Shown in pieces: positions 18,226 through 18,898 of a DNA stretch of 64,000 nucleotides. How positions within the stretch are numbered: the first letter of the stretch is position 1; each line of letters opens with the position of its first letter. The stretch is from Aneurinibacillus soli. GTDB lineage: Bacteria; Bacillota; Bacilli; Aneurinibacillales; Aneurinibacillaceae. Below the pieces are notes generated by a model. The model worked only from the letters and a program-made list of their open reading frames with translations. It did not search any database and was not told the origin of the DNA. The translations under genes were made by a program, and so were the position numbers. The DNA is taken from positions 1,195,001-1,259,000 of the forward strand of contig NZ_AP017312.1 in assembly GCF_002355375.1 (NCBI RefSeq), given 5' to 3'.

Positions 18226-18275
18226 AAAGGAGTGGTTTCAAAAGTCGTACGTGACGATTGAGACCGCTCCTTTTT
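18226..18275 (+). terminator. Terminator after hemQ
   Basis: GGAGTGGTTTCA (18229-18240) pairs with TGAGACCGCTCC (18259-18270) and is followed by TTTTT. The loop contains a further self-complementary GTCGTACGTGAC. Confidence 0.88.
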
Positions 18276-18321
18276 CATCTGCAAGGTTTTTGAGGATTGG
18301 ATCTGCTCAACGTGTAGTGGA

Positions 18322-18523
18322 GGAGCGGAGAAGGGAGGCATCTGTCACTTCGGTACGCTTGGCAGGGGAGTAAATCTGGTCGCTCCAGGGCTCCGGTGCA
18401 CTCGCCCATAAAAGGACAGGATGAAGGTTCACAGAAGGGTTATGGGCAAAAGCCCGTGCACCAGATCCCTTCCGCTGGGCAACGCGCGTACAGGCGTTCC
18501 GTGATGCCTCCCTTCTCCGCTCC
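18322..18523 (+). repeat. Structured element A with perfect 21-bp terminal inverted repeat
   Basis: The ends, 18322-18342 and 18503-18523, are perfect reverse complements over 21 bp. Inside are nested helices: GTACGC (from 18353) with GCGTAC near 18484-18490; ATCTGG (18374) with CCAGAT (18461); GGTGCAC (18395-18401) with GTGCACC (18456-18462); and GCCCATAA (18404-18411) with TTATGGGC (18440-18447). A related element lies inverted at 18627-18834. The 103 bp between them hold only a short hairpin (GTACGGC-TTT-GCCGTAC, 18572-18588). No coding frame is credible. It may be a structured RNA, a palindromic mobile repeat or both. Confidence 0.8.
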
Positions 18524-18626
18524 TGCCGCCAGTTGGGCCAGTTATCCATCACTCAGCAAGCACAGATCTTAGTACGGCTTTGCCGTACACTCTGGACTTT
18601 GTCTTTTTTTTGAATCTCAACTTTGT

Positions 18627-18834
18627 TGGGAGGAGAGAAGAGAGAAGTAAGAGAGCGCCTGTACGTGTTACCCAGCGGAAGGAGAACAGCGAACGGGCCT
18701 TTGCCCGCAACCCTTCAGTGAAAGAACATCGGGGGTCCTCTTTTGCGGGCGAGTTCGCTGGGCTCCTGGAGCGGACAGTCTATTCTTCTCTGCAAGCGTA
18801 CCAAAGCGAACGGCTTCTCTCTTCTCGACTCCCA
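18627..18834 (-). repeat. Structured element B, diverged inverted copy of element A
   Basis: Read on the - strand this matches element A in order (GGTACGCTTG, CGCTCCAGG, ACTCGCCC, GAAGGGTT, GGGCAAA, CCTTCCGCTGGG, GTACAGGCG). Its ends pair over 19 of 21 positions (18627-18647 with 18814-18834). The inner helices are kept with different bases: CAGCGAAC/GTTCGCTG (18687-18694 with 18753-18760) and GCCCGCAA/TTGCGGGC (18703-18710 with 18743-18750). Such paired changes show selection for base pairing rather than a recent plain duplication. Confidence 0.8.
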
Positions 18835-18857
18835 CCACCAAAGTTACTCGATTCCAC

Positions 18858-18888
18858 AAAAAAGAGCAGCCCTGTTAGGACCGCTCTC
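18858..18888 (-). terminator. Terminator of the namZ gene
   Basis: On the - strand AAGAGAGCGGTCCT... pairs imperfectly with AGGGCTGCTCTT and runs into six T. It stands 11 bp after the namZ stop. Confidence 0.7.
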
Positions 18889-18898
18889 TTCCCCTACC

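Follow-up and report, generated by a model that had tools for sequence, protein, structure and literature searches.

The window, the stretch of 64,000 nucleotides of Aneurinibacillus soli (NZ_AP017312.1) that was analysed here, contains two inverted elements that face each other between a hemQ-like gene and a convergent NamZ-like gene. An earlier note, made from the letters alone, had suggested a structured RNA or, alternatively, a mobile element of palindromic form, and the locus raises the question of which of these the pair represents, or whether it could be both. Matching with a covariance model (CM R1, built from 37 copies) and an inverted-repeat search placed element A at positions 18319 to 18528 (207.6 bits, E 1e-55) and element B, an inverted copy of A, at positions 18624 to 18835 (219.9 bits, E 6e-59). 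The 95-bp spacer between them (18529 to 18623, based on spacer alignment and spacer listing) carries a small hairpin (GTACGGCTTTGCCGTAC, 18572–18588), the stem of which differs from copy to copy. The putative RNA strand is the minus strand for A, with its 5′ end at the spacer, and the plus strand for B.

The two facing elements were found where the earlier note had placed them, but its length of about 205 bp was too short, because the stems extend further outward, to GCTTGATGG/CCATCAAGC in A and to TTTTTTGTGGAATCGA/TCGATTCAAAAAA in B, giving about 210 bp each. The long paired ends that it described were also evident: in A, the outer arm (18321–18342) was complementary to the inner arm (18503–18524) at 22 of 22 positions, and in B, the inner arm (18624–18647) paired with the outer arm (18814–18837) over 24 nt with 88% complementarity. 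Compared with dinucleotide shuffles, the folding z-scores were −6.4 and −7.0 for the plus and minus strands of A, and −5.4 and −2.5 for those of B, the minus strand of B being the weakest. A and B represent two subfamilies of a single element.

Inspection by eye revealed a terminator-like hairpin with a T-run on each side of the pair, one after the hemQ-like gene (18227–18275, plus strand), pointing at A, and one of the convergent NamZ-like gene (18857–18890, minus strand), pointing at B, with its T-run running into the outer end of B. Neither of these hairpins was flagged by a consensus terminator scan, and a consensus scan for promoter-like sites found none at this locus. The flank common to the window and the relative G006 stops at 18275, in the former hairpin. 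It was also noticed that outer terminator-like hairpins, including that at 18227–18275, often resemble each other in an inner motif (similar to CAAAAGCCAGAACATGGCGACTGAG), most of all where the spacer is long; this motif could belong to the unit or represent a mini-repeat of its own.

Copy number, pairing and distribution

An initial DNA search of the genome returned dozens of copies, mostly as facing pairs. A search of this genome by covariance model, an approach proposed in the earlier note, raised the number to at least 150 full-length matches, which is a lower bound since 150 of the 1294 candidate sites were scored and every one of the 150 was full-length. Among these at least 150 copies, all 52 close pairs were head-to-head, in the order (−,+) by model strand, with spacers of 65–173 bp in 51 of them and of 398 bp in one. 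Single copies numbered 46 among those scored; some may merely have unscored partners, and one was the product of its partner's deletion. None of the 150 scored copies of the 1294 candidates was located in the first 478 kb (G000:C1:1-478000), an absence that may not be real.

Copies were intergenic, often with gene ends and terminator-like hairpins nearby on the outside. The element, about 210–250 bp in size, had no ORF, and the arms of close pairs were too near to each other to hold a gene. Convergent gene context was observed for 10 of the 32 pairs with both neighbours called and was otherwise mixed, indicating that convergent genes are not required. Examination of 59 neighbouring genes (74 Pfam families) revealed no recurrent family beyond generic transporters and PilZ. 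A helper gene inside wide-gap pairs was considered and rejected, the contents being decayed transposase fragments or ordinary genes; at L145 (764–2066), the spacer of a pair had grown to about 1 kb, with a decayed frame that by eye resembled an IS1595-type transposase. Spacers were alignable among the short-spacer pairs and the small hairpin was kept, which indicates that A, spacer and B behave as one unit in the window's genus.

Of the genomes labelled as belonging to this genus, the window's genome had at least 150 copies and G006 had 105. G005 had 6, G003 no more than 8 (most of them weak matches) and G004 a single weak match; G001 and G002 had none. Two further genera of the family had 23 and 15 copies, and sampling of the class gave matches (E ≤ 1e-5) in 30 of 250 genomes, belonging to 15 of 105 genera (about 1 in 7). 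Among the diverged loci that were read, four had pairs, again in the (−,+) order, and one had a tandem. Plasmid records contained no match to the element, and a match in a KSB1 MAG, obtained from a pattern scan of named genomes, was not supported by the covariance model. The earlier note had recognised no named class and had given a known Rfam family as the outcome that would speak against it. No Rfam match was found in the window at gathering or permissive thresholds, and none overlapped the elements in 20 diverged loci; a search of open-licence papers found no description of the element.

Covariation and strand asymmetry

The helix pairs quoted in the earlier note were present, and their covariation, seen there between A and B alone, extended over many copies. 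In an alignment of 109 copies, fitted to the model, 96.7% of stem cells paired, both-side changes occurred at 40 of the 54 pairs, and none of 500 shuffles reached the observed covariation; inner stems with loop interruptions covaried as well as the outer stem. An alignment of 43 matches, mostly from other genera and likewise fitted to the model, had both-side changes at 50 of the 54 pairs, a value again reached by 0 of 500 shuffles. The same helices were obtained from a structure-free MAFFT alignment of 71 copies. Loss of covariation with more copies, also named beforehand as an outcome against the proposal, did not occur; the signal grew stronger. As for the unpaired blocks that had been called conserved, short ones like CCCAGCGGA and GGAGCGGACAGT were seen by eye to recur in diverged homologues in which the stems had been swapped out.

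Copies at the same loci in this genome and G006 differed by 10.3% at paired versus 21.8% at unpaired positions. Upon removal of one doubtful locus (L083/L019, excluded from the final ortholog counts for opposite element orientation and strong divergence), 30 double changes were counted versus 8 expected, and pairing was kept in 25 of the 30. The lower divergence of paired sites together with these compensatory changes suggests that the fold has been under selection since the elements inserted. At the common locus L083 versus L019/L058, a single element was inverted between the two species and strongly different, which suggests either that a pair has lost one arm there or that the element was replaced.

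The copies are not independent and the ratios are given as bare counts; overall, G·U exceeded A·C by about 3:1 on one strand, the one read outward from the spacer. With helices picked by Watson-Crick pairing alone, a structure-free alignment gave 82 G·U versus 25 A·C on the reverse strand of A, in which all four helices agreed, and single changes at the same loci, with the doubtful locus dropped, gave 61 versus 21. In the fitted alignment, where G·U counts lean towards the model, copies sorted by chromosomal strand gave 146:42 and 134:35; since the asymmetry is equal on either strand, the replication strand does not explain it. Because the G·U-rich strand reads outward from the spacer, the functional form is likely to be RNA, or a strand-specific single-stranded DNA. 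Covariation and strand asymmetry thus lend support to the structured-RNA half of the earlier proposal.

Hairpin targets and IS1182-like ends in relatives

The other half, a palindromic mobile element, gained support from the copy number and from what was observed in relatives. In three genomes (G204, G240 and G054), to which this result applies, 10 copies were flanked by direct repeats of 19–29 bp, each repeat being a whole terminator-like hairpin (for example, AAACCGCAGGAACGATTCCTGCGGTTC and AGCCGTCTCCCATCAGAGAGACGGCT). A repeat score of at least 15 was obtained for 12 of 29 diverged copies, compared to a maximum of 10 in 145 mismatched flank-pair controls. The copies in these three genomes have the ends CAGNNTGNNGACAAAG and CTTTGTC...CTG, which are similar to those of intact IS1182-family elements in G204 (CAGATTGCAGACAAAC...CTTTGTCTACAGGCTG). 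The transposase of the latter matched NF033551 with 491 bits (cut-off, 270), and 5 of the 8 IS1182 copies examined in G204 were flanked by duplicated hairpins of 20–31 bp. In these relatives, all 15 duplicated targets (10 of the element and 5 of IS1182) fold as hairpins. The elements themselves carry no gene and so no NF033551, the name IS1182 referring to the presumed helper only.

In the window's genome, there was no sign of recent movement: no target duplication was found at pairs or singles and no match to an IS1182-type transposase was obtained. Because the element ends in this genome differ from those of IS1182, we infer mobilisation here, and an origin in common with the copies of the relatives, by homology of the interior only. 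Most of the sites that could be compared between this genome and G006 were either shared or decayed, and there was no clean empty site in G006 among them. The window locus itself was considered as such a site and rejected, as it holds a decayed remnant and another gene in G006, and another difference proved to be the deletion of one arm. In addition, at L136/L003 and L137/L016 one arm of the pair was about 130–140 bp shorter in G006, with 6–8 bp overlaps at the junctions, as in slippage deletions inside hairpins. In the window's genus, the pair is best regarded as an old and probably immobile unit.

Origin of the element and relation to known systems

We consider it probable that this is a non-autonomous, MITE-like element related to IS1182, with a conserved structured interior that is probably RNA, and that it has become a fixed pair unit in the window's genus. 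The interior would adopt a nested, conserved fold, probably in RNA of the strand leading outward from the spacer, which would presumably be transcribed. For relatives in other genera, the shared ends and type of target suggest that a DDE transposase of the IS1182 type probably works in trans on the ends CAGNNTGNNGACAAAG; it would recognise hairpins, as a rule those of intrinsic terminators, by their shape and insert there, and the insertion would duplicate the whole hairpin, so that the neighbouring gene keeps its terminator. In the window's genus, A-spacer-B would have been fixed as a head-to-head unit and have multiplied to at least 150 copies. These units now seem to be inherited without moving, their fold being maintained by selection. 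A more far-reaching proposal is that of a strand-specific structured RNA class across many Bacilli genera, the genes of which would themselves be transposable via IS1182 transposases in trans into gene terminators with duplication of the hairpin, and which in one genus would have expanded to at least 150 copies, as pairs of divergent RNAs whose function is under selection; this we put forward tentatively, our judgement leaning slightly against it.

Palindrome-templated repair could be behind part of the covariation, and the element might be pure palindromic selfish DNA (a large MITE or REP-like repeat) without RNA function, in which template switching and gene conversion within the long inverted repeats would keep the arms complementary by copying arm onto arm. 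The folding of both strands, the at least 150 copies, the partial deletions with 6–8 bp overlaps inside G006 elements, and the failure to detect a promoter at the window locus or a conserved neighbour gene are consistent with this. However, such repair predicts neither that the approximately 3:1 strand asymmetry tracks element orientation nor that short unpaired motifs are kept across genera while stems change, and the covariation of the loop-interrupted inner stems, equal to that of the outer stem, also argues against selfish DNA alone, which we regard as unlikely.

A host ncRNA or 3′-end module, such as a terminator, an insulator or an mRNA stabiliser, might have spread because it benefits the host, with divergent RNAs running outward from the spacer and with mobility incidental. 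Such an origin would agree with the intergenic location, the frequent proximity to gene ends that have terminator-like hairpins on the outer side, and the conservation of the fold and the spacer hairpin. It is made quite improbable by copy numbers that vary widely within the genus (at least 150, 105, 6, 8, 1, 0 and 0), by the mixed gene context (10 of 32 pairs convergent) and by the target duplications in other genomes. More doubtful still is that the conserved object is single-stranded DNA, with a strand-specific fold recognised by a recombinase, as for attC or REP/RAYT. One-strand G-T tolerance would be expected here too, the hairpin geometry is suitable, and two Y1 transposase (Y1_Tnp) genes are present in the window's genome. 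Nevertheless, just two Y1 genes stand against at least 150 copies, on which ground a Y1/RAYT origin was judged improbable, and the enzyme associated in relatives is the DDE transposase of IS1182, with target duplications; we give this possibility very little credence.

The favoured reading, an IS1182-related element with a structured interior, would join three things usually seen apart: an RNA structure preserved through compensatory changes, mobile repeats of high copy number, and a transposase family that reads the shape of hairpins. It would also bring to light a structured element missing from catalogues that occurs in about 1 in 7 sampled genera of the class, and would explain how a parasite can reside beside many genes without loss of their terminators. 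Inverted pairs of palindromic units between genes are also known as REPINs or REP-BIME with RAYT, but the present units are several times larger and are associated with a DDE transposase. Similar to HEARO/omega-RNA, a structured RNA would be borne by a mobile element with copies that lack a gene; the differences are that there is no Rfam match and no recurrent adjoining gene, and that the presumed mobilising enzyme is another one. The repeat bcr1 is group-specific and inserts at a short TTTAT-like site, in which it would differ from the present element. In the Bacillus cereus group, bcr1 is an interspersed repeat of 147–167 bp with conserved secondary structure (PMC2267715), features which it has in common with the present element. 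Prokaryotic MITEs (RUP, BOX and Correia; PMC10969869) are likewise short, non-coding, high in copy number and intergenic with terminal inverted repeats, whereas the present element has nested covarying helices and unpaired motifs conserved over many genera, and its target duplication is a whole hairpin.

A close parallel in target choice is IS1272 of Staphylococcus, an IS1182-family element that is reported to recognise stem-loops by structure, not by sequence, and to replace them (PMC5678879); the hairpin targets are similar, and the ends in the relatives resemble those of intact IS1182 in the same genome. Unlike IS1182/IS1272, the element has no transposase, possesses a structured interior of about 210 nt and forms head-to-head pairs in the window's genus, and its target hairpin is duplicated, whereas that of IS1272 was reported to be replaced. 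Duplication of the whole stem-loop was drawn in the IS1272 study as an alternative, possible pathway (PMC5678879), for which the exact whole-hairpin duplications seen here are evidence. It was also noticed that two IS1182 copies of G204 (L199 and L202) have the same target hairpin, aaagaaccgagttttgtcggttcttt, on the left of one and on the right of the other, as expected after recombination between IS1182 copies.
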